A stretch of DNA of 36,334 bases, taken from IMG/VR virus record IMGVR_UViG_3300008262_000160, positions 1 to 36,334 of that record. One strand, written 5' to 3'. Position 1 is the stretch's first letter; every line of letters begins with the position of its first letter. The position numbers were made by a program, and so were the translations under genes. Positions 2,501 to 16,068 of this stretch are shown in pieces. The notes beneath the pieces are model-generated. The model did no database searches. It saw only the letters and a program-made list of their open reading frames with translations, and was not told the DNA's origin. This DNA is from a virus.

Positions 2501-2818
2501 ATGAATAATTTAGAGAATAGAATGGTTGTTGGTGATTATGATAACCCGTCATTAATGTCTGGTTGCGCAGGCACTTCATTCTTTAATGATTCATATGAAA
2601 ACGAAGAATTAACCAATTCAAAAGAATTAGCTTACTACAAAGAAGCGGCCACCTGTTTTAATGAAAGAAAAATAAACTCATTAAGATCTCTTTTAGAAGA
2701 GATGGCAGATTCAATTCCTTATGAAGAAAAATTCTCTACAAAAAGACAAGAAATAAGCGACATAATTGATAGTCTAGATGACTTTCAATATTTTTTAGAG
2801 TTAGCTCAAAGTAACTAA
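2501..2818 (+). CDS. Hypothetical acidic protein, 105 aa
   Basis: The product is acidic and mostly helical, with a Gly/Ser/Pro-containing N-terminus (about residues 8-27) followed by long helices (YYKEAATCFNERKINSL, and an acidic C-terminal helix). I do not recognise a family. The start is well supported by AAAAAGGAAACTGAA before the ATG and by the promoter at 2440-2468. It is the first gene of the operon that carries the Trp-repeat family and is separated from the first repeat gene by 40 bases. Confidence 0.7.
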   Translation: MNNLENRMVVGDYDNPSLMSGCAGTSFFNDSYENEELTNSKELAYYKEAATCFNERKINSLRSLLEEMADSIPYEEKFSTKRQEISDIIDSLDDFQYFLELAQSN

Positions 2819-2858: not shown

Positions 2859-3254
2859 ATGAAAATATCACAACTTAAAAACGCTCCACAATGGTTACTA
2901 AAAGCTGCAGTGGAGGATGAGGATGTAGAAATTATTGATGGAATGGTGATTTGGAAAAGTGGTATTTGGTTAAATGGTGTATGGGAAAATGGAGTGTGGG
3001 AGGACGGTATATGGGTAAAAGGTATATGGGTTGATGGATTTTGGAAAAACGGTGTATGGGGAAATGGAATATGGGAGAGCGGAATTTGGGAAAATGGTGA
3101 GTTTCAGGATGGAGAATGGATAAATGGAACATGGATAAATGGAATATGGGAAGATGGAATTTGGCTTAATGGAGTTTGGATAAATGGATTATGGGAAGAT
3201 GGTTGTTGGCTAGGTGGAGTTTGTAAAGATGAGAATAGAGGTAAGCAATCATGA
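2859..3254 (+). CDS. Trp-pentapeptide repeat protein 1 (W1), 131 aa
   Basis: This is the first of eight paralogues. Residues 1-35 form the family head (MKISQLKNAPQWLL, then the acidic EDEDVEIIDG). It is followed by about 19 units of the five-residue repeat G-x-W-x-[ND], with one Trp replaced by Phe (unit 11) and the last by Cys. At DNA level this is an imperfect 15-bp tandem repeat. A central large residue with a small residue two positions before it resembles pentapeptide-repeat beta-helices (A-[DN]-[LF]-x-x), but Trp in the core position is not the known family, so the fold is inferred. No signal peptide or catalytic motif is visible. The end overlaps the next ATG as ATGA and the last codons (AGAGGTAAG) are its ribosome site. 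Confidence 0.85.
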   Translation: MKISQLKNAPQWLLKAAVEDEDVEIIDGMVIWKSGIWLNGVWENGVWEDGIWVKGIWVDGFWKNGVWGNGIWESGIWENGEFQDGEWINGTWINGIWEDGIWLNGVWINGLWEDGCWLGGVCKDENRGKQS

Positions 3255-3973
3255 GAATATCACAACTTGAAGATGCTCCTCAGTGGTTACTGAATGCAAA
3301 GGTAGAGGATGAGGATGTAGAGATTATTGATGGGAAAGTAATTTGGAAAATCGGTACTTGGAAAGGTGGGTCATGGAAAAATGGAACATGGAAAAATGGA
3401 GTATGGCAGGATGGCTTATGGATTAACGGAACATGGGAGAATGGGTTCTGGGAAGATGGAACATGGGAAGACGGTACTTGGAAAAATGGAATTTGGAAAA
3501 ACGGAGTTTGGCAGAATGGGGCATGGAATAATGGATTATGGAAAGGTGGAACATGGAGAAATGGCATTTGGAATAATGGAAGATGGAAAGGTGGAATTTG
3601 GAATTATGGAGTATGGGAGAATGGAATTTGGTTAGATGGAACATGGAGGAATGGAACATGGAATAATGGAAAATGGAAAAATGGAGAATGGAAAAATGGA
3701 ACATGGATTGATGGAACTTGGTATTATGGATTATGGGAGCACGGAGTTTGGAGAAATGGAATATGGAAATATGGAATGTTTGATGGTGGAACATGGAATA
3801 ATGGAAATTGGATAAATGGCGCTTGGAAAGATGGACTGTGGAAAGATGGGACTTGGAGAAATGGAGTTTGGGTAAATGGAATATGGCAGGATGGGTTATG
3901 GATTAATGGAGAATGGAAAAATGGAACATGGGTAAAGGGAGTTTGTGAAGATCAGCATAGAGGAAAACAATAA
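3251..3973 (+). CDS. Trp-pentapeptide repeat protein 2 (W2), longest copy, 240 aa
   Basis: This is the longest family member. The same head (MRISQLEDAPQWLL, acidic EDEDVEII) precedes about 41 uninterrupted units of G-x-W-x-[ND]. A single unit has Phe for Trp (MFDGG near residue 180) and the final unit has Cys. All units stay in exact five-residue register, so if the repeat is a four-sided helix it would make about ten turns. The start overlaps the stop of W1 (ATGA) and the stop TAA shares a base with the ATG of W3, so the genes are translationally coupled. The Lys/Arg, Glu, Asn and Thr choice at variable positions changes from unit to unit. Function unknown. Confidence 0.85.
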   Translation: MRISQLEDAPQWLLNAKVEDEDVEIIDGKVIWKIGTWKGGSWKNGTWKNGVWQDGLWINGTWENGFWEDGTWEDGTWKNGIWKNGVWQNGAWNNGLWKGGTWRNGIWNNGRWKGGIWNYGVWENGIWLDGTWRNGTWNNGKWKNGEWKNGTWIDGTWYYGLWEHGVWRNGIWKYGMFDGGTWNNGNWINGAWKDGLWKDGTWRNGVWVNGIWQDGLWINGEWKNGTWVKGVCEDQHRGKQ

Positions 3974-4326
3974 TGAAAATATCAGAGCTTAAAGACGCTC
4001 CTCAGTGGCTAATTGATGCTGAAGTAGAAGATGAAGATGTAGAAATTATTGATGGGATAGTTATTTGGAAAAGTGGTATTTGGCATTATGGCAATTGGAA
4101 AAATGGAACATGGGAAAGTGGACATTGGGGAGATGGATTGTGGGAAAAAGGAATATGGAAACGCGGGCATTGGCTAAATGGATTGTGGAAAAATGGAACA
4201 TGGAATGATGGAATTTGGAATAATGGATTATGGGAGAATGGAGTTTGGAAGGATGGTATATGGATGGACGGTAAATGGATAGATGGCAAATGGGAAGACG
4301 GCATCCGAATGAATTGTATTAGATAA
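3973..4326 (+). CDS. Trp-pentapeptide repeat protein 3 (W3), 117 aa
   Basis: The head is intact (MKISELKDAPQWLI, acidic EDEDVEIIDG) and is followed by about 16 pentapeptide units. The repeat then breaks at DGIRMNCIR and stops, without the short RGKQS-type tail that ends W1, W2 and W4. The loss of the Trp codon and of the usual tail suggests truncation of an originally longer gene. The start shares one base with the stop of W2. W4 follows after a 17-base gap with its own AAAGGT ribosome site, unlike the overlapping junctions elsewhere in the array, which supports a rearrangement at this end. Confidence 0.8.
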   Translation: MKISELKDAPQWLIDAEVEDEDVEIIDGIVIWKSGIWHYGNWKNGTWESGHWGDGLWEKGIWKRGHWLNGLWKNGTWNDGIWNNGLWENGVWKDGIWMDGKWIDGKWEDGIRMNCIR

Positions 4327-4343
4327 TAAAAAAAGGTAAATAA

Positions 4344-4793
4344 ATGAAAATATCACAACTTAAAGACGCTCCAAAATGGTTATTAAATGCAAAGATAGAG
4401 GATGAAGACGTAGAAATTATTGACGGAATGGTTATTTGGAAAAGTGGAACTTGGTTAAATGGATTATGGGAGAATGGAGTTTGGAAGGATGGATATTGGA
4501 AAAAGGGAAGATGGATGGGTGGCGTTTGGGAGTATGGATATTGGAAAAATGGAGTTTGGGAGAATGGAGTTTGGATGGATGGATGGTGGCTTAATGGAAA
4601 ATGGAAAAATGGAACATGGAATGATGGAATTTGGAATAATGGAACATGGAGAAATGGTTTTTGGAAAGACGAGAGAACGAAACATGGAAAAATGGAAAAT
4701 AGAAAGATAGGTTTAGTAAAAACTATAAGTGGAATTTTGATACGGTTACAAAGTGTTTTCCGTAAAAAATCAAATAAAGGAAAACAATCATGA
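4344..4793 (+). CDS. Trp-pentapeptide repeat protein 4 (W4), frameshifted C-terminal part
   Basis: After the family head there are about 16 in-register pentapeptide units to residue 109. The sequence then changes to a Lys/Arg-rich tail without the repeat. In another frame at 4682-4699 the DNA still encodes TWKNGK followed by a stop, so the array was longer and an indel around 4671-4681 shifted the frame. The tail ends with KSNKGKQS and the TGA overlaps the ATG of W5. The gene is still open and may make protein, but the C-terminal 40 residues are probably not the ancestral sequence. Confidence 0.75.
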   Translation: MKISQLKDAPKWLLNAKIEDEDVEIIDGMVIWKSGTWLNGLWENGVWKDGYWKKGRWMGGVWEYGYWKNGVWENGVWMDGWWLNGKWKNGTWNDGIWNNGTWRNGFWKDERTKHGKMENRKIGLVKTISGILIRLQSVFRKKSNKGKQS

Positions 4794-5020
4794 GAATATC
4801 AGAACTTAAAGACGCTCCAAAATGGTTACTTAGAGCTACAGTAGAAAATGAAGACGTAGAGATTGTTAATGGAAGAGTAATTTGGAAAAGTGGTATTTGG
4901 ATTGATGGAATTTGGCATTATGGAGTATGGAAAAATGGAATTTGGAGGAGTGGGCTGGTTCTTATATCAGGAGGATGCGTAAAAACTTTAGAATCGCCGA
5001 ACAAAATAATTAACAAATAG
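4790..5020 (+). CDS. Trp-pentapeptide repeat protein 5 (W5), near-empty copy, 76 aa
   Basis: This copy has a full head (MRISELKDAPKWLL, with NEDVEIVNG) but only about five pentapeptide units, the minimum in the family. The C-terminal tail (RSGLVLISGG through SPNKIINK) aligns with those of W6 and W7, so repeats were lost from the middle. It ends at TAG (5018-5020). Reading on in frame gives R-Q-S and a TGA at 5030-5032 that overlaps the ATG of W6, exactly as in W1, W4 and W7, so the TAG looks like a late nonsense change. The codons after it still provide AGAGGC as ribosome site for W6. Confidence 0.75.
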   Translation: MRISELKDAPKWLLRATVENEDVEIVNGRVIWKSGIWIDGIWHYGVWKNGIWRSGLVLISGGCVKTLESPNKIINK

Positions 5021-5028
5021 AGGCAATC

Positions 5029-5424
5029 ATGAAAATATCAGAACTTAAAGACGCACCTCAATGGTTGTTAGACGCTGAAGTAGAAGATGAGGACGTTGAA
5101 ATTACAAATGGCTTTGTAATTTGGCATAAAGGTATATGGTTAAATGGAGTGTGGCATGATGGAGTTTGGGAGCGTGGAATCTGGAAAAATGGAATTTGGG
5201 AGGAGGGATTGTGGAAGCATGGAGTATGGGAAAAGGGGGCTTGGATAAATGGATGGTGGGAAAATGGAACTTGGGAAAATGGATGGTGGAGACATGGAAT
5301 TTGGGAAAATGGAATATGGGAATATGGATATTGGCTTGGTGGAGTTTGGAAAGTTGGCGCTTGGAAGAATGGCTTGGTTCTTTTGTCAAATGAATACGTA
5401 AAAACTTCAAAATCTCCAAACTAA
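5029..5424 (+). CDS. Trp-pentapeptide repeat protein 6 (W6), 131 aa
   Basis: Head MKISELKDAPQWLL with acidic EDEDVEIT is followed by about 17 pentapeptide units and a tail (NGLVLLSNEYVKTSKSPN) shared with W5 and W7. Three units carry Trp-Trp (WWENG, WWRHG and the like). From about 5054 to 5198 the DNA is nearly identical to 6288-6431 in W8; the only block of difference is a 6-bp segment (ATGGCT here, its reverse complement AGCCAT there) between 7-bp inverted arms. W6 is followed by two unrelated small genes before the family resumes at 5815. Confidence 0.85.
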   Translation: MKISELKDAPQWLLDAEVEDEDVEITNGFVIWHKGIWLNGVWHDGVWERGIWKNGIWEEGLWKHGVWEKGAWINGWWENGTWENGWWRHGIWENGIWEYGYWLGGVWKVGAWKNGLVLLSNEYVKTSKSPN

Positions 5425-5441
5425 ATAACTAAGGGTGATTT

Positions 5442-5696
5442 ATGATTTTTGATTTCTTTGTAATGATCTATTCAATATTAGGTATTACCTTAATATTCTT
5501 TTCTTTCTTATTTAGCAATTTTAACAACAATATAAAATTTATAATATTTTTCTTGTCTGGCTCGGCAATATTATACAGCTCTCATTATATGGCGAAAGCA
5601 GAATATGAAAATTTAATAAACTTCAAAAGTAAAATAGAAGTTGTCTATGTTGACGACAAAATAAAAGGCGACCCATATGATTCTAAAATTAATTAA
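5442..5696 (+). CDS. Small membrane protein, 84 aa, two predicted membrane segments
   Basis: The N-terminal 55 residues contain two hydrophobic stretches (about 3-26 and 31-50), rich in Phe, Ile and Leu, with a short loop containing Asn and Lys. The remaining 30 residues are soluble and charged. No family is recognised. It interrupts the Trp-repeat array between W6 and W7 and its last 20 bases overlap the start of the zinc-ribbon-like gene at 5677. A ribosome site (AAGGGTG) precedes the ATG. It could be a holin-like or superinfection-related membrane protein, but nothing in the sequence decides this. Confidence 0.65.
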   Translation: MIFDFFVMIYSILGITLIFFSFLFSNFNNNIKFIIFFLSGSAILYSSHYMAKAEYENLINFKSKIEVVYVDDKIKGDPYDSKIN

Positions 5697-5811
5697 AAAA
5701 ATATCTCAATTTTTTTGCGAACATGAATTTCAAATAAAACATAAAATATATTTTGATCAATATACATGCATTAAATGCGGAAAAATAAAAATAAGAAATG
5801 ATTGGGAGTAA
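5677..5811 (+). CDS. Small zinc-ribbon-like protein, 44 aa
   Basis: The frame begins at ATG 5677 inside the end of the preceding gene and stops at 5811, three bases before the ATG of W7. The product has a C-E-H pair near residues 14-16 and C-I-K-C-G near residues 31-35, spaced as in small C-x-H / C-x-x-C zinc-binding ribbons common among phage micro-proteins. It is basic with an amphipathic N-terminus. The last codons (TGGGAGTAA) contain the ribosome site of W7. Metal binding is inferred from the Cys/His pattern alone. Confidence 0.6.
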   Translation: MILKLIKKISQFFCEHEFQIKHKIYFDQYTCIKCGKIKIRNDWE

Positions 5812-5814
5812 ATA

Positions 5815-6267
5815 ATGAAAATATCAGAACTTAAAGATGCGCCACGATGGTTATTAAAAGCCGAAGTGGAAAATGAAGACGTTGAAATAATAGATGACAT
5901 AGTAATTTGGCATAAAGGCATATGGGAAAATGGAGTTTGGGAAAATGGAATATGGAAAAATGGAACATGGAAAGGTGGACGGTGGATAAACGGGTATTGG
6001 CAAACTGGAATTTGGGAAAATGGACAATGGGAAAATGGAATGTTTAAGTTTGGCGTCTGGAAAGATGGCTTCTGGGAAAATGGCACTTGGTTAAATGGAT
6101 TTTGGGTAAATGGAGTTTGGGAAAATGGAACTTGGGAATATGGAACTTGGGAAAATGGGACATGGGAAAATGGAATTTGGAGGAGTGGGCTGGTTATTTT
6201 GTCAGGCGAATATATACAGACTTCAGAATCTCCAAAAGAAATAATTAATAAAGAAAACCAATCATGA
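5815..6267 (+). CDS. Trp-pentapeptide repeat protein 7 (W7), 150 aa
   Basis: The head (MKISELKDAPRWLL, with acidic NEDVEIID) precedes about 19 pentapeptide units with one Trp-to-Phe change (MFKFG) and ends with the tail RSGLVILSGEYIQTSESP seen in W5 and W6, then INKENQS. The TGA overlaps the ATG of W8 (ATGA), and AAAGAAAACC within the last codons serves as its ribosome site. This intact tail is the reference that shows the amber codon in W5 to be internal. Function unknown. Confidence 0.85.
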   Translation: MKISELKDAPRWLLKAEVENEDVEIIDDIVIWHKGIWENGVWENGIWKNGTWKGGRWINGYWQTGIWENGQWENGMFKFGVWKDGFWENGTWLNGFWVNGVWENGTWEYGTWENGTWENGIWRSGLVILSGEYIQTSESPKEIINKENQS

Positions 6268-6734
6268 AAATATCAGAATTAGAGAATGCACCTCAATGGT
6301 TGTTAGACGCTGAAGTAGAAGATGAGGACGTTGAAATTACAAAGCCATTTGTAATTTGGCATAAAGGTATATGGTTAAATGGAGTGTGGCATGATGGAGT
6401 TTGGGAGCGTGGAATCTGGAAAAATGGAACATGGAAAGGTGGAATATGGGAAAATGGAACTTGGGAGAATGGAATATGGGAGAGAGGAAATTGGCATGAT
6501 GGGATTTGGGAAAATGGAACATGGAAGAGAGGAACATGGTGTCGTGGCGTTTGGATAGGTGGATGGTGGGGAAATGGATTTTGGGAAAATGGATTGTGGA
6601 TAGATGGTTTTTGGGCAAATGGGTATTGGAATAAAGGCGTTTGGGAAAATGGATTATGGCGCAATGGAACATGGAAAGGTGGACGTTGGCGTCGTGGATT
6701 TTGGAAAGATTGGATTTGGGAAAATGGAATTTAG
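6264..6734 (+). CDS. Trp-pentapeptide repeat protein 8 (W8), ends at premature amber
   Basis: After the head (MKISELENAPQWLL, acidic EDEDVEIT) there are about 25 pentapeptide units, then TAG at 6732-6734. The frame stays open for 29 more codons to TAA at 6822-6824 and continues the repeat in register: the amber sits exactly where a unit Trp is expected (NGI-stop-HGGIWNTG). TGG to TAG is one transition. The extension then leaves the repeat and ends in a non-repeat tail (EFEKIHVAINELPYKN). So this is a full-length gene of 186 codons with a nonsense change, or an amber that is sometimes read through. The 5' part is nearly identical to W6. Confidence 0.8.
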   Translation: MKISELENAPQWLLDAEVEDEDVEITKPFVIWHKGIWLNGVWHDGVWERGIWKNGTWKGGIWENGTWENGIWERGNWHDGIWENGTWKRGTWCRGVWIGGWWGNGFWENGLWIDGFWANGYWNKGVWENGLWRNGTWKGGRWRRGFWKDWIWENGI

Positions 6735-6824
6735 CATGGCGGCATTTGGAATACAGGATGGCGGCTAGGTGGAGAATTTGAAAAAATCCACGTAGCAATT
6801 AATGAATTACCATATAAAAATTAA
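6735..6824 (+). pseudogene. In-frame remnant of the W8 C-terminus after the amber codon
   Basis: Ninety bases in the frame of W8 encode HGGIWNTGWRLGG and a 16-residue tail before TAA. The preserved pentapeptide register shows it was recently part of W8. It would be translated only by amber suppression or read-through. Confidence 0.65.
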
Positions 6825-6974: not shown

Positions 6975-7622
6975 ATGAACACAAATACAATGTATAAAGA
7001 TTTTATTAAAGCTCAAAAAGAATTTGAGCCTGCATTAAAAAACAGCACAAATCCTCATTTTAGAAGCAAATACGCTGATTTAAGTGTATGCATAGATGCT
7101 GTTAAAGATGCTTTAAACAACAATAACTTTTCTTTAATACAAAAAAATCATGAAAATGAAAACGGAGTTGCTGTTGAGACAATATTTTTGCATGAATCTG
7201 GCGAATTTATTTCCTCTGGGATATTAAAGCTTCCTGCATCAAAACAAGACGCTCAAGGATATGGATCAGCATTAACTTATGCAAGAAGATATAGCTTAAT
7301 GTCTGTTTGCGGTATAGCCGCAGAAGATGATGATGGCGAACAGGCATCTAAAACCCAAGCATTAAAACAAGCGGTATATTCAAAACCTGTTCTTAAAAAA
7401 GAAACAAATGAAATACAAGATAATCCTTTTGCAAAAGAAGCTAAAGATCATGCTAAAAAAGGAACTGAAGAGTTTACCAAATGGGCAAAAAATTTAAGCG
7501 AAGAACAAAAAAAAGCTTTGGAGCCATTAAAGCAAGCTTTATGGTCAGAGGCTAAAGATATAGATAATTTAAACAAACTTGAAAAAAGGTTTGATGCAAC
7601 AATAATTGATAGGGGTATCTAA
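6975..7622 (+). CDS. erf: ERF-family single-strand annealing protein
   Basis: The 215-residue protein matches the ERF superfamily of phage recombinases, which anneal complementary single strands and support recombination-dependent replication or circularisation. Family marks are the N-terminal FIKAQKEFEPALKNS, then NPHFRSKYADL (about residues 26-36), and QGYGSALTYARRYSLMSVCGI (about 94-114) followed by the acidic AEDDDGEQ. The C-terminal third is Lys and Glu rich, probably flexible or helical, and variable in the family. The stop and the next ATG share a base (TAATG). SSB (9272) and a VRR-NUC nuclease (8825) lie nearby, a usual companion set. Its substrates in this genome may include the 15-bp repeats of the Trp-repeat genes. 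Confidence 0.9.
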   Translation: MNTNTMYKDFIKAQKEFEPALKNSTNPHFRSKYADLSVCIDAVKDALNNNNFSLIQKNHENENGVAVETIFLHESGEFISSGILKLPASKQDAQGYGSALTYARRYSLMSVCGIAAEDDDGEQASKTQALKQAVYSKPVLKKETNEIQDNPFAKEAKDHAKKGTEEFTKWAKNLSEEQKKALEPLKQALWSEAKDIDNLNKLEKRFDATIIDRGI

Positions 7623-7989: not shown

Positions 7990-8019
7990 AAATTTTATAA
8001 GTAACAAAAAGGATATATG

Positions 8020-8349
8020 ATGAAAATTTTACTGAGTGAATCTCAAGAAATATTTAGAACTGGAATCGCAAAAATATTAAATGATCTTAATTTTTTTGTT
8101 GAAATAGCAGATGATTTAATTTCTTTTAAAAAAAAGCTAGATAATAGCTTTGATATTATTATATTTGATGTTGAAATGCTTGGTGATTATGCATTCAATA
8201 TTGCAAATGAAATGCAATGTAACCCATTTAGAGAAACATTATTAATAGCTACATTCTATGATATCAAAAATAATAAAATACCTAATTTATTTGAAAAAAA
8301 TGTACATAAACCTTTTAACAAAAATAAATTATTAAACATTTTGCATTAA
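8020..8349 (+). CDS. Stand-alone response-regulator receiver domain
   Basis: The 109-residue protein fits the whole length of a CheY/NarL-type receiver: strand 1 and loop MKILLSESQE, helix IFRTGIAKIL, strand FDIIIFD with the phospho-acceptor Asp at residue 50, VEMLGDY after it, LLIAT with Thr78 and HKPF with Lys97. Asp50, Thr78 and Lys97 are the conserved acceptor, Thr/Ser and Lys. The acidic pair in the first loop is Glu7-Ser8 instead of Asp-Asp, so metal binding and phosphorylation may be altered. No output domain is attached and no kinase is visible in the window. An ATG at 8017 is also present, but the AAGGA ribosome site fits 8020 better. It may tap a host phosphorelay or act phosphate-independently. 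Confidence 0.75.
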   Translation: MKILLSESQEIFRTGIAKILNDLNFFVEIADDLISFKKKLDNSFDIIIFDVEMLGDYAFNIANEMQCNPFRETLLIATFYDIKNNKIPNLFEKNVHKPFNKNKLLNILH

Positions 8350-8824: not shown

Positions 8825-9202
8825 CTAAATAGTGCCTATATCTGTTGCAAAACAAGCGTCCCCGCCCATATCAATTACTATATCTAAAAAATTTTTTTGA
8901 GCAACCTCTCTTTCGTCAGCTTTGTATTTCCATCCAGTTATTTTTACTTCTCTACACATAAACAAGCCAACGGTTTTGCCTACCATGTCTTGAGTTATGG
9001 TTACTTTTTTTATTCCAATCAAATCTGATGATTTAATTGTTGAATTTGTTTTTTTGGAATCATTTGCAAGGCCATATCTTATTAGTCTACCATTTCTATC
9101 ACGTAATGCTCCAGAATTATTTCGCCATAAAATATGGCCTTTAGCAGCTGCCTCTTCTTGAATTAACTTTACAATATCGGTTTCTTTTAATTTATTGTTC
9201 AT
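8825..9202 (-). CDS. VRR-NUC domain nuclease
   Basis: The 125-residue protein matches phage VRR-NUC nucleases (PD-(D/E)XK fold), which cut branched or mismatched DNA. Visible marks are the N-terminal KETDIVKLIQEEAAAKGHILWRNN, the catalytic-type SSDLIGI with Asp60, then G-L-F-M-C-R-E-V-K with Glu85 and Lys87, and the conserved AQKNFLDIVIDMGGDACF containing Gln102. The catalytic residues expected of the family are present and the length is normal. It is the only leftward gene between the rightward operons and starts 70 bases from the divergent SSB gene, so the shared region at 9203-9271 probably holds both promoters. It likely processes recombination or replication intermediates with ERF and SSB. 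Confidence 0.85.
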   Translation of the reverse strand: MNNKLKETDIVKLIQEEAAAKGHILWRNNSGALRDRNGRLIRYGLANDSKKTNSTIKSSDLIGIKKVTITQDMVGKTVGLFMCREVKITGWKYKADEREVAQKNFLDIVIDMGGDACFATDIGTI

Positions 9203-9271: not shown

Positions 9272-9682
9272 ATGTCAATGAACGTTAATAAAGTTATTTT
9301 AATAGGCCACGTCGGAATAGATCCTGTATGTAACAAACTTGCAAATGATATGAGTGTTTGTAAATTTACCTTGGCAACAAATGAAAAATTCTTTTCAAAA
9401 AAAGATAACGAAAAAAAAAGCCTGGTAGAATGGCATAACGTTAGTTGTTTTGGAAAACTTGCCGATGTAATGATTACCTATTTGAAAAAAGGTCAAACAG
9501 TATATGTTGAAGGTAAAATTAAGTCTTCAAAATATAAAGATAAAGAAGGTAATGATAGAATGTATTTCTCAATTACTGCCAATGAAATAATTATACTTTC
9601 AGAGAAGAATGATAATTATAATGAGCAACCAAAAGATCATACATTTGACCTGCCATTTAAAGACGATGAAATACCTTTTTAA
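9272..9682 (+). CDS. ssb: Single-stranded DNA-binding protein
   Basis: The 136-residue product is a typical bacterial-type SSB. The OB fold spans about residues 4-110 with NKVILIGHVGIDP at the start, FTLATNEKF, VEWHNVSCFGKLAD and LKKGQTVYVEGKI in order, then a short linker. It ends in DLPFKDDEIPF, the acidic tip that recruits partner proteins, so it can probably contact host replication and repair factors. Ribosome site AAAGGAAAA precedes the ATG. With ERF and the VRR-NUC nuclease it forms the recombination module. Confidence 0.95.
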   Translation: MSMNVNKVILIGHVGIDPVCNKLANDMSVCKFTLATNEKFFSKKDNEKKSLVEWHNVSCFGKLADVMITYLKKGQTVYVEGKIKSSKYKDKEGNDRMYFSITANEIIILSEKNDNYNEQPKDHTFDLPFKDDEIPF

Positions 9683-11416: not shown

Positions 11417-13225
11417 TTAAGCTGGTCCGCCGTCGGTAATTGCCCAAGTATATGTGCCTGTTAATGTTGCTCTTGCTACTGCCCCGCTAGCATCATATTT
11501 AGATCCGCCACCGCTAAAAACAACTCCGGTTCTGACCACTTGGGCAGCCCATCCAACAAGGATTGAGCTATATATAGCAGTCGATAAAGTTATACTTGTA
11601 AACATACTTGACATATTTGTGACGTTTGTAACATTCCACGTTCCAATATTCTGATTAAAAGAGGTAGCGCTTTGGAACATATTAACCATTGTTGTTACTA
11701 ATGAGGTATTCCACGATCCGATTGGCTGGTTAAAAGATGTTGCGCCAAAGAATGTTTCACCCATATTAGTAACTTTTGAAGTATCCCAAGAGCTTATGTT
11801 CCTGTTAAACGATGTTGCTGACCTGAATGTCGCTCCTAGTTGGGTTAAGCTTGAAGTATTCCAGCCACTTATATCTCCATTAAATGCTGTGGCACTTTGG
11901 AACATATTATTCATACTTGTAACTTTTGACACATCCCATGACCCAATGTTTTGATTAAATGCAATAGCATTTTGGAACATTGATGCCACACTAGTAACAT
12001 TTGAAGTATTCCATGCCCCGATATTTTGATTAAATGCAGTGGCATTCTGGAACATGCTAGCCATCGTTGTTACATTTGAAGTGTTCCAAGTTCCTATAGG
12101 CTGGTTAAATGCAGACGCTTGTAAGAACATTTGAGCCATATCTATAGCGGCCACTGTATTCCACGTGCTAATGTTTTGGTTAAATATAGCCTGGGCAAAC
12201 ATGGAATTAAATATTTGAACCTTTGAAGTGTTCCATGCACTAATATCCGAATTAAACATGGAAGCGCCTTGAAACATATTACTCATGGTTATTACATTTG
12301 AAGTGTTCCAAGTTCCTATAGGCTGGTTAAATGCAGACGCTTGTCTGAACATTTGTGACATGTTAGTAACTTTTGAAGTATCCCAAGAGCTTATGTTTTG
12401 GTTAAAAGCAGTGGCGTTTTGAAACATTGAAACCATATTTGTTGCCGAACCAGTATTCCAAGCACTAATGTTTTGATTAAAAGAAGTGGCGTTTTGAAAC
12501 ATGCTTAACATGGTTGCAACGTTAGAAGTATTCCACGTTGTAATATCTCCGTTAAATGCCGTGCAACTTAAAAACATGCTTGATAGGATGAGGGCGCTAC
12601 TGGTATTCCAAGAAGCAAGAGATTGGTTAAATGCTGTGCATTGCGCAAACATACCATTGAAATTTGATACTTTTGATACGTTCCATTTATTAATGCTCTG
12701 ATTAAAAAGCGTGCAGCCCTGAAACATGTTATCCATCGATACAACGCTTGAAGTATCCCAGTTATCTAGATTAGGAATGCTTCTTATAGATGAGCAATTT
12801 CTAAATAAAAAGGAAAAAACTAGAGAACTATAATTTAAATATGGAATATCCGTAGCCGTAATGACAAGATTAGCGCATCCATAAAATAAACTGGAAGACT
12901 GAGACAAATTAATGCTACCCCACTGAATTACTCTAAGGAGCTTTAATGGATCACCTGCATTATTAAACCCCATAGCAAACTGCCCATAGATGCTAATAAC
13001 ATAAGTTCCAGCAACGCTATAAGTCTTTGTCCACTGTGCGTCAGAGTTGGTTGTGATTAGAGATGATTTTGTACCATCACCCCAATCTACCCAGCATGTA
13101 TAAGTGGCGCCAGAAATAGTAGGTACTCTAAATTGAGTACTAGTTGTTGTGCCAGCATTATCCGTTTTTACTTGGATAATAAATGGGCCTCTATTTAAGC
13201 TTAAAGCTCCAGTAAAAACAGACAT
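11417..13225 (-). CDS. BspA-like (DUF285) repeat protein, candidate receptor-binding fibre
   Basis: The N-terminal 100 residues include a PKD-like segment ([12 protein letters not shown] ... [12 protein letters not shown]). Then come 16 repeats of about 24 residues of the type W-[ND]-T-S-x-V-x-x-M-x-x-M-F-x-x-A-x-x-F-N-Q-x-I, the DUF285 repeat of BspA-like surface proteins known from mycoplasmas, Listeria, oral bacteria and protists. Such repeats form elongated leucine-rich-like solenoids and often bind host surfaces. The start is taken at 13225: TAATG shares a base with the stop of the upstream fibre gene and GGAG lies eight bases before it; a start at 13252 would overlap upstream coding by 28 bases. 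Repeat copies include DNA segments of over 50 bp that are identical. A receptor-binding role is inferred from location. Confidence 0.8.
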
Positions 13226-16068
13226 TAGAAGGTCTCCAGGAATAAGGTCCAAGTGATGTTGTTATCAGCAGACCCAGTCACGTTAATTAAAATATTTGAT
13301 CCAGATGCAGTCAAAGCCACTGTCCACGTTTGGTCTGTATACGTAGTGATTCCACCACCTATTACAGAAGCTGTACCCGATGGATTTTTTACTCCTGCCT
13401 GTATAAAGAATGTTCCGCTATCTCCAGTCGTGCCAGAAGTTCCACCGGTTCTTGATGCTTTAACAAATCCACGCAAAGCAAATGCTGTTGCGGCTGGGAC
13501 AGATATGGTTTGTAATGTTGTTGTAGTAGCGTTTGTTGTGTTAACTGTATTGCATAATGTTACGTATTGACATACGCCAGCAACACCCTGCGTTAGCAAA
13601 GAAACGTTAGAAGAATTTAACACGCTCATTTGGCCAACTTGAGAAGGCAACGTAGAATCTATTGAGCTTGGTAAAACATATCCGACCCATCCTCTTGTCG
13701 TACCTATAAAGAAAATAGAAGTCGTTGACCCAGCTATTCCATTTATCACCGGGGGTGACCCAGTTGCCCATGTTACGTTTAACCACGTTACAGCCCTTGA
13801 TCCTGTTGCATCTTGAATTAAATCAAGTTCCATTTCTCTTTGAGTAGTTGCAGATGGGTTGCTTGACAGTGTTATTGTGCAATTTGCTGTTAATGTTATT
13901 CCCTGTGAATAACCATTTGCTGGATTCAAACTGAATGCTGACCCAGAATTTGCTGTAAAATCAAAATTAATAAGGCCTGATGTAGTAAATTGCACAGATG
14001 TCGCAGTTGCAACCCCAATGTTTGGTGTAACCAAGGTAGGAGATGTTGCAAAAACAAGCGATCCACTTCCTGTTTCATTAGTTACAGCTGCTGCTAAGTT
14101 AGCACTTGTTGGTGTTGCTAAGAATGTTGCTATTCCTGTTCCTAATCCAGAAACACCAGTACTAATTGGAAGACCAGTACAGTTTGTTAGCGTTCCGCTT
14201 GTTGGGGTGCCCAATATAGGAGTCACTAAAGTAGGAGATGTTGCAAAAACTAAAGATCCTGAACCAGTTTCGTTAGTTACAGCCGCTGCCAAATTGGCAC
14301 TTGTTGGCGTTGCTAAAAATGTAGCCACTCCAGTCCCAAGACCACTAATGCCAGTTGCTACAGGTAGCCCAGTGCAATTTGTTAAAACGCCAGCTGATGG
14401 CGTTGAAAGATTAATGCCACTTGGTATTGTCGTTGAAAAAGATAATACGCCACCTGAGCTGTAAGAAAGTATTGCGCTGTTAACAGCAGTTATAGTTGTT
14501 GGAGCAGCACCAGCACCCCCGCCTATAACAACACTATTTGAAGCTAAAACTCCACTTGTTTGCAATGCACTTGTTGATGAGAAATAGGGTATACCTCCGC
14601 TAGTGCCTGTTACAGTAAGACCCAAATTACCAGAAGATGTAATAGGTGAATTTGTAACACCAAAAATACTAGAAGCTGGCACAGTCAAGCCAACACTTGT
14701 CACCGAACCACCAGAAGAAGAGTCAGTCCAATAACTCCATGCAGCATTGCTTGTAATAGAAGTAGAATTACATCGAAATGTTGTAATGTTATTTGCTGGA
14801 GCTGAAACAATTAAACTTCCGTCAGATGCATTTACTGTTAAAGGTTGAGTGCTTTGATTGATAACCGAAAACTTAAAATTAATCGCCAATGTTGATGTGT
14901 TAGGCATTACGATGGTTTGAGCGCTTGTGCCAGTAAAAATCTGATCAACACCGCTTGCAGCAGTTAATGTTGTTGTTCCGCCAGAAGTTACGGTAGAGTT
15001 ATAACCTTCAATAAAGTTATTAGCTTGCAAGTTTTTATTTGCATCCCATTGAGCAAGGAAAGACGCCGTAGAATTAGAAGAATATCCAAGGCTAGCAAGC
15101 TGTTTTGATCCGTTGGTGATAACTGCTTGTGACGCTGTTAATCCAGAGTTGACCATATTTGTAGCTGTTAATGTTCCTACGTTAATATTCCCGGATCCGT
15201 CCCTGCTTACTAAAGTTGAAGCGGTATTGGCGCTTGTGTATTGTAAGCTTATCAAGTTCTTAAGTGAATCAGTCACAACTGCTCTTGACGCAGAAAGACC
15301 GCTTAATTGCATTGACCCACTCCAAGCTAAATTATTTAAACCATTAACTTGCAAAGCCAAGCCTGTTACGCCGTCAATTGATAACCAAGTAATTGCTGCA
15401 CCAAGGGTTAATCTAATCTCACCAAACCCAGGAAGAGTTCCATAAGACCCCCAATAACCTGCGATTGCTCCATTTGTTATAGAAAGACTGTCAAATAATG
15501 GAGACGAAGTAGTGCTGATAGCTTGTGGTAGTGATAAAACCACATCGCCCGTTGGAGATGATGCATTTAATGTCCCGTCAGTTGCGATCGAAGTAACAGC
15601 GGATGCTATAGAAGAATCAACATATGACTTAACGGCATATTGAGTTGGCAAATAATATGCAGATGCCGAACCGGAAACTTCTAAACTAACGTCATTACTT
15701 ACACCAGTAACTGGGTCAGTTGAGTTCAAATAAATATAATCTGTAGCATCTAAATAAATTGAAGCGTTTCCTTTAGCGACAATTTTTACATCCGTATTTG
15801 TATTTGGGCCTTCTGCTGTATAAACAACATAATTATCAGTTATTGATGATGATATTGTAAAAGGATAAACAGATGCGTTTGGTCCTTCTGTGGCAGTACT
15901 GTCATATGAAAGCATGTAATTTCCATACCTGTCCTTAATGCCATCATATGGGAAATCAAATATAGTGTTTACGCCATCTCGTAACCCTACAACTTTATCT
16001 CCAGTAGTTAATGTCCCGCCTTGTTGTAGTGCTCCGCCACTAACAAAGCTACTAAATGGTACTGCCAT
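13225..16068 (-). CDS. Large tail fibre protein, 947 aa
   Basis: The N-terminus ([24 protein letters not shown] ... [11 protein letters not shown]) is a virion-attachment type start seen in podovirus fibres. The middle holds long Ser/Thr/Asn-rich shaft repeats of the type [22 protein letters not shown], and two tandem copies of a widespread fibre module ([22 protein letters not shown], then TSPTLVTP) at about residues 565-690. The C-terminal part is beta-rich. It has no cleavage or enzymatic motif I can see. AAGGAATAATC precedes the ATG. With the 725-residue protein and the DUF285 protein it probably builds the host-recognition apparatus. Confidence 0.85.

Follow-up and report, generated by a model that had tools for sequence, protein, structure and literature searches.

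What kind of protein is made from genes that consist almost entirely of a repeated five-residue unit, G-x-W-x-[ND], and how does such a protein fold? The question is raised by eight paralogous genes, W1 to W8, that lie at positions 2859-6734 of the viral record IMGVR_UViG_3300008262_000160 from IMG/VR (36,334 nucleotides, the whole of which is called the window here). Each gene encodes a head of about 33 residues followed by units in exact five-residue register. All eight open reading frames (ORFs) are on the plus strand and start where a preliminary description of this DNA, made from the letters alone, had placed them (Table 1). The exact register it reported was found again, with fewer units: we counted 145 strict G-x-W units (16, 38, 15, 15, 4, 16, 17 and 24 from W1 to W8), or 148 together with three G-x-F units, instead of 158, and the wide range per gene was 4-39 rather than 5-41. 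At least eight contiguous units, the minimum asked of a pentapeptide-repeat protein, were present in seven of the eight paralogues, and W5 has four. Two adjacent units, written as a DNA pattern, occurred 97 times on the plus strand versus 0 times in 100 dinucleotide-preserving shuffles. The head is conserved, as had been claimed, with 27 of the first 55 residues invariant across all eight proteins, 18 of these within the head (M1, I3, S4, L6, A9, P10, W12, L13, A16, E19, E21, D22, V23, E24, I25, V30, I31 and W32). The region takes up 10.7% of the window, in agreement with the tenth of the genome estimated before. Its end had been set at 6824, which overshoots because W8 stops at a TAG codon (6732-6734) and the frame continues behind the stop as HGGIWNTGWRLGGEFEKIHVAINELPYKN, with further repeat-like residues, to 6824.

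Covariation between units of related arrays indicates how many of them make one turn of the fold. If a coil is built of three units, outward residues three units apart touch each other. We measured covariation at lags of 1 to 12 units in 101 related arrays from outside the window (2,041 units). Three units apart, the charges of the residues that follow Trp were anticorrelated (lag 3, z -5.8), against z -0.1 at lag 4, and at the lags other than 3 no anticorrelation went beyond z -1. The signal persisted when phages with many arrays were left out (z -4.6) and when one array per locus was used (combined z -3.3, with 43 of 64 arrays negative). The identity of the core residue, Trp or Phe, correlated at lag 3 only (z +7.5). 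As a positive control, 55 canonical pentapeptide-repeat arrays were run through the same script and gave lag 4 for both charge (z -3.9) and core identity (z +5.8), as expected because the known pentapeptide-repeat fold is four-sided; lag 2 was also high for core identity. Since the GxW arrays covary at lag 3 and not at lag 4, while the control gives lag 4, the coil should consist of three units and be triangular. For the family as a whole the count of three is well supported; in the eight proteins of the window it is likely. The number of units was divisible by three in 35 of 69 arrays. Exact DNA repeats within 109 arrays (102 of them from outside the window) were not enriched at multiples of three units, and therefore duplication history does not produce the lag-3 signal. 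Duplication in steps of 45 bases, that is of one coil, was considered and rejected: the blocks in the window lean that way (22, 14 and 11 in the three spacing classes), but the 109-array set has no such preference.

Structure prediction with AlphaFold2 (AF2) gave the same period. The model of W6, built with 18 further sequences of which 11 came from other phage contigs, had a mean predicted local distance difference test score (pLDDT) of 90.3, with 97-98 in the array, and a predicted template modelling score (pTM) of 0.82. Three-residue strands at 51-53, 66-68 and 81-83 repeat every 15 residues. Disorder, named in the preliminary description as an outcome that would speak against its idea, was not what the model gave: the predicted W6 fold is a regular solenoid. 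The array repeat is thus predicted to fold as a beta-solenoid that is not of the classical pentapeptide-repeat type. In structure comparison by VIA, the matches of the W6 model were triangular beta-helices. Left-handed ones scored Z 8-10 at a root-mean-square deviation (rmsd) of about 11 A, and the match with low rmsd was bactofilin 6rib (Z 8.4, 2.3 A over 91 residues). Because the score is based on distances and ignores hand, and only bactofilin superposes at low rmsd, we infer a right-handed triangular helix for the W6 model. Pentapeptide-repeat chains were not among the VIA matches listed for W6, which by itself excludes nothing.

Several results pull the other way. In the window alone (seven arrays) the lag-3 charge signal has the same direction but is weak (z -1.9). 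An AF2 model of W2, built with its paralogues (8 close sequences), resembles the four-sided luminal pentapeptide-repeat domain of SV2 (Z 5.5-5.7); its mean pLDDT is 56, a low confidence, and it was set aside in favour of the W6 model, which drew on 19 diverse sequences. Foldseek searches of the PDB with the W2 and W6 models returned nothing at E<=0.001, and a Z of 8, as obtained with bactofilin, can reflect a common arrangement.

The array was also compared with known systems. Bactofilins are right-handed triangular parallel beta-helices, a fold that the W6 model may share; their repeat length differs, and neither a sequence relation nor a match to the Pfam bactofilin profile was found. Left-handed beta-helix proteins, such as the hexapeptide acyltransferases and the spruce budworm antifreeze protein, also have a triangular cross-section; the rmsd of about 11 A is what would be expected if their hand is opposite, since the score compares distances. 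Hexapeptide proteins are built of six-residue units with 18 residues per coil, whereas the window has a five-residue unit and a predicted 15-residue coil. MORN repeats share the string G-x-W-x-x-G with the window arrays. The MORN unit has about 23 residues, whereas the period of the window arrays is exactly 5 and no Pfam MORN match was obtained. A triangular solenoid close to pentapeptide-repeat proteins, its nearest described relatives, has recently been reported in bacteria (Knotted Solenoids, 9RDS; PMC13123833), so that the kind of solenoid proposed here is not unprecedented; according to the passages that describe them, the Knotted Solenoids belong to one bacterial group only, are knotted and contain fewer Phe residues, and a GxW unit is not mentioned there.

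Given these data, we regard it as an evenly balanced proposition that the arrays form a family of small cytoplasmic phage proteins which fold as triangular solenoids of three units per coil and act early as protein-binding effectors. In such a protein, three five-residue units (15 residues) would make each coil of a parallel beta-solenoid, giving a rod of triangular section. Trp would occupy the core position of each side and N-G the corners, two residues of every unit would point outward, and a charged outward residue would tend to find its opposite charge in the next coil. Both the triangular cross-section and the cap come from the model, in which the 33-residue head would serve as a short helical cap with the first strands. 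Rods of 4 to 39 units would have about 1 to 13 coils and would vary in their surface residues as well. Multiple paralogues that keep one core but differ in surface and length suggest a set of binders. These would be rigid, present in multiple copies and directed early at host or defence proteins, with the surface residues setting the target of each paralogue. A more far-reaching version we put forward tentatively: the arrays would be a class of beta-solenoid that has no name so far, a pentapeptide helix with three sides and a Trp core, widespread in phages, and small phages would carry it in multiple copies as a kit of rigid binders, variable in length and surface, that neutralize several host targets. 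If the three-unit coil is correct, five-residue repeats can close beta-solenoids with three sides as well as with four. The two repeat types would then be a natural pair in which to study what determines coil geometry, and the array would offer a scaffold that is both simple and regular, with Trp at its core. With a tenth of the genome spent on eight such genes, their role is testable by deletion.

Genome organization bears on the timing of this action and on the possibility that the arrays are structural, serving as spacers, rulers or scaffold rods in the virion or in intracellular assemblies. The genes of the terminase, portal, major head protein, head closure protein and endolysin are on the minus strand. 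The plus strand carries a block of the eight array genes followed by genes of an ERF-type annealing protein and a single-strand DNA binding protein (SSB), and the array therefore belongs to a replication/recombination block. Such a block is usually early in phages of this kind, and the array genes would be expressed together with the early replication and recombination genes. Elsewhere, genes of the same head group neighbour those for MazG, thymidylate synthase, dCMP deaminase, exonuclease VIII, Gam, methyltransferases and primase; two neighbours of stand-alone relatives are terminases. These metabolism genes beside the relatives, together with ERF and SSB in the window, suggest early action in the cytoplasm. 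A structural role would agree with rigid rods of variable length, with the arrays of huge phages lying within proteins of 1,100-3,300 residues and with bactofilin, the closest superposing fold, being a protein that polymerises. We consider it rather unlikely, because the array genes are in the replication block on the strand opposite to the head and connector genes, stand-alone relatives lie near genes of nucleotide and DNA metabolism, and none of the large array proteins that were scanned matched a structural PHROG. Of the roles left open in the preliminary description (host interaction, anti-defence or virion-associated), the virion role is thus argued against in this phage by gene position, while in huge phages the arrays that lie inside proteins of more than 1,000 residues could belong to the virion.

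Another proposal, made in the preliminary description from the variable number of units next to an ERF gene, is that the array generates diversity. In such an array the number and order of units would change fast by ERF-assisted recombination and so vary the proteins. Blocks common to paralogues agree with it. W6 and W8 have identical blocks of 82 and 56 bases, covering the head and first units, at the same offsets; W3 and W4 have common blocks of 42 and 35 bases whose offsets are shifted, and the tail of W5 recurs in W7. This sharing indicates that paralogues exchange or duplicate segments. Codon diversity points in the same direction: at the first two bases it is 0.64 and 0.61 for the outward residue x and 0.64 and 0.50 for y, so that the outward positions of 0.61-0.64 are at least as diverse as the third position of the Gly codon (0.46). 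This suggests surface residues that are weakly constrained or diversified, and codon bias could contribute. Against a diversity-generating array, 126 of the 145 units have distinct DNA sequences and their similarity does not decay with distance, and the arrays therefore do not look recently expanded. Blocks were shared at the level of paralogues only, a closely related genome in which a change in copy number would show was not found, and ERF genes are common in phages. The proposal was not borne out, and we judge it improbable.

The arrays might instead be divergent ordinary pentapeptide repeats, four-sided, with G and W replacing A and L. Pentapeptide repeat proteins (PF00805; MfpA, Qnr, HetL and the luminal domain of SV2C) indeed share the strict five-residue unit, a small residue at i-2, a large hydrophobic residue at i and a parallel beta-solenoid, and the weak W2 model matched the SV2 domain. 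In addition, three relatives (L024, L025 and L026) have the head, then GxW or GxF units, and then a C-terminal domain, phrog_31567 (a match of 1.1e-16 in L024 and weaker ones in L025 and L026), that in Acinetobacter, Caulobacter and other phages is joined to canonical A-[DN]-L-x-x repeats. In a Vibrio phage this domain is attached to a hexapeptide-like repeat as well, and it is thus no voucher for a four-sided coil. As domains like it follow GxW, GxF, canonical pentapeptide and hexapeptide-like arrays, the GxW array fills the beta-solenoid position of a common architecture. The consensus of the pentapeptide unit is (A/C/S/V/T/L/I)(D/N/S/K/E/I/R)(L/F)xx (PMC8145042). The window units have Gly at i-2 and Trp at i in 145 cases and Phe in three, and instead of four units per coil there is covariation at lag 3 and a 15-residue period in the confident W6 model, with which the low-confidence W2 model disagrees. 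Since two defining features, the unit consensus and the four-unit coil, fail, we did not file the array under the pentapeptide-repeat family, and an ordinary four-sided fold is quite improbable. The earlier view of the array as non-canonical thus stands, on the lack of any Pfam hit at E<=1 and now also on a coil period of three.

That the array proteins are DNA mimics of the MfpA, Qnr or Ocr kind, by which gyrase, restriction enzymes or other DNA-binding enzymes would be inhibited or shielded, is very improbable: some pentapeptide-repeat proteins do mimic DNA (PMC8145042), the head is acidic, and W1 and W7 have net charges of -12 and -10, but the net charge of the eight proteins spreads from -12 to +10, the arrays are near-neutral (-11 to +4, and on average -0.17 per unit in related arrays) and outward charges in the family tend to alternate from coil to coil, the opposite of the uniformly and strongly negative face of a DNA-like surface.

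The three-unit solenoids proposed here have many relatives in phages and hardly any entry in the family databases. Array proteins had zero Pfam matches at E<=1, including the pentapeptide-repeat, MORN and bactofilin profiles, no NCBIfam family covers them, and the PHROGs gave nothing beyond chance-level or weak matches. A PDB sequence search with W2 returned noise only (TRIM21, E 0.3). The literature searched yielded no paper on a GxWxN repeat, and the string GxWxxG occurred there only in papers on junctophilin. Yet a DNA-pattern scan of IMG/VR found at least 118 stretches in phage contigs, and head-profile scans of IMG/VR led to contigs (L022-L026) with the head M-K-I-S-E-L-x-N-A-P-x-W-L, so that the head is common to other phages, for which the preliminary description had proposed a profile search, and matches no characterised family. 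The stretches listed from the DNA-pattern scan contained 130 array ORFs, spread over 96 loci; a few of the ORFs are readings in another frame, and some loci are on one contig. A motif resembling a cap, W-[LIV]-x-x-A-x-[IV] ... [VI]-x-W-x-x-G-x-W, is often found ahead of the arrays even when the heads are otherwise different, and multi-copy sets of array genes recur in other phages. A head scan of the genome collection turned up a single weak locus, L027, in a genome without any match to the whole protein, and the DNA pattern was absent from all 296 bacterial genomes scanned from the phylum of that genome.

Searching phage records with tblastn returned gp54 of Pseudomonas phage PspYZU05 (Straboviridae) and also huge uncultured phages. 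The gp54 protein shares both head and array with the window proteins (identity 45% across 115 residues; Foldseek E 3.4e-12); it differs from them in that a single gene is seen at its locus and in an extra C-terminal stretch. It is labelled 'phosphatidylinositol 4-phosphate 5-kinase 5-like protein' (L001:3992-4603). This kinase label is evidently a misannotation of a GxW-array protein, and the 'PIP5K 5-like' name was presumably taken from MORN-containing proteins; a member from an isolated phage thus carries a misleading name. In huge phages the arrays are embedded in proteins of 1,100-3,300 residues, and a PHROG scan of large array proteins from other phages gave no function and no structural match among those tested. 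Phages of 106-140 kb (L010-L018, L047, L072; IMG/VR 3300033141, 148, 149, 153) have GxW-array genes in long tandem runs; the heads are large, one type with a WCTA-like motif and another matching phrog_20946. A C-terminus like phrog_31567 (CKW ... IGCK-x-K-T ... EWD-x-WF) recurs in L024, L025, L026, L055, L074, L076, L116 and L124. In Vibrio phage 1.139.B (L031:2618-2959), six 'CRISPR spacer' features lie inside coding V-x-G-x-A repeats and are probably false CRISPR calls.

Table 1. Array genes and co-oriented neighbours on the plus strand of the window
Feature	Position	Strand	Description
Upstream co-oriented ORF	2501..2818	+	105 aa; no confident family (Pfam, PHROG)
W1	2859..3254	+	Head + 16 GxW + 1 GxF units, 131 aa; 4-base overlap with W2 start
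W2	3251..3973	+	Head + 38 GxW + 1 GxF units, 240 aa; stop overlaps W3 start by 1 base
W3	3973..4326	+	Head + 15 units, 117 aa
W4	4344..4793	+	Head + 15 units, then 40-residue basic tail, frameshifted-looking; 4-base overlap with W5 start
W5	4790..5020	+	Head + 4 units, 76 aa, shortest paralogue; C-terminal tail common to W6 and W7
W6	5029..5424	+	Head + 16 units, 131 aa
Small unrelated ORF, W6-W7 interval	5442..5696	+	No PHROG match
W7	5815..6267	+	Head + 17 GxW + 1 GxF units, 150 aa; 4-base overlap with W8 start
W8	6264..6734	+	Head + about 24 units, 156 aa; stop TAG
In-frame stretch after W8 stop	6735..6824	+	HGGIWNTGWRLGGEFEKIHVAINELPYKN then TAA; probably left over from a longer W8
ERF-type single-strand annealing protein, directly 3' of array	6975..7622	+	Pfam PF04404, 6.1e-25; phrog_2324, 5e-47
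Single-strand DNA binding protein, end of plus-strand block	9272..9682	+	phrog_44, 6.6e-36

The genes of the array are closely packed, with overlaps of one to four bases at four junctions (W1/W2, W2/W3, W4/W5 and W7/W8), and a purine-rich stretch lies upstream of most of their starts, as in a translationally coupled cluster. Scans for promoters and terminators gave results no better than shuffles, and neither Rfam families nor tRNAs were found in the window. The final 40 residues of W4 depart from the repeat while the repeat-like ETWKNGK is present there in another frame, so this tail looks like the product of a frameshift.

Other ORFs of the window were noted in passing. Within the plus-strand replication block, an endonuclease-like ORF (phrog_93, 1.9e-10) lies on the opposite, minus strand at 8825-9202, and a 110-aa ORF on the plus strand at 8017-8349 resembles, by eye, a response-regulator receiver domain; its PHROG matches are weak. 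A likely tail protein of 947 aa with internal repeats and no PHROG match is encoded on the minus strand at 13225-16068. In the structural block, the minus strand at 11417-13252 encodes a 611-aa protein with tandem WNTSNVTxMxxMFxxAxxFNQxI repeats that matches phrog_17273 and others of unknown function, and which we take to be a DUF285/BspA-like protein.

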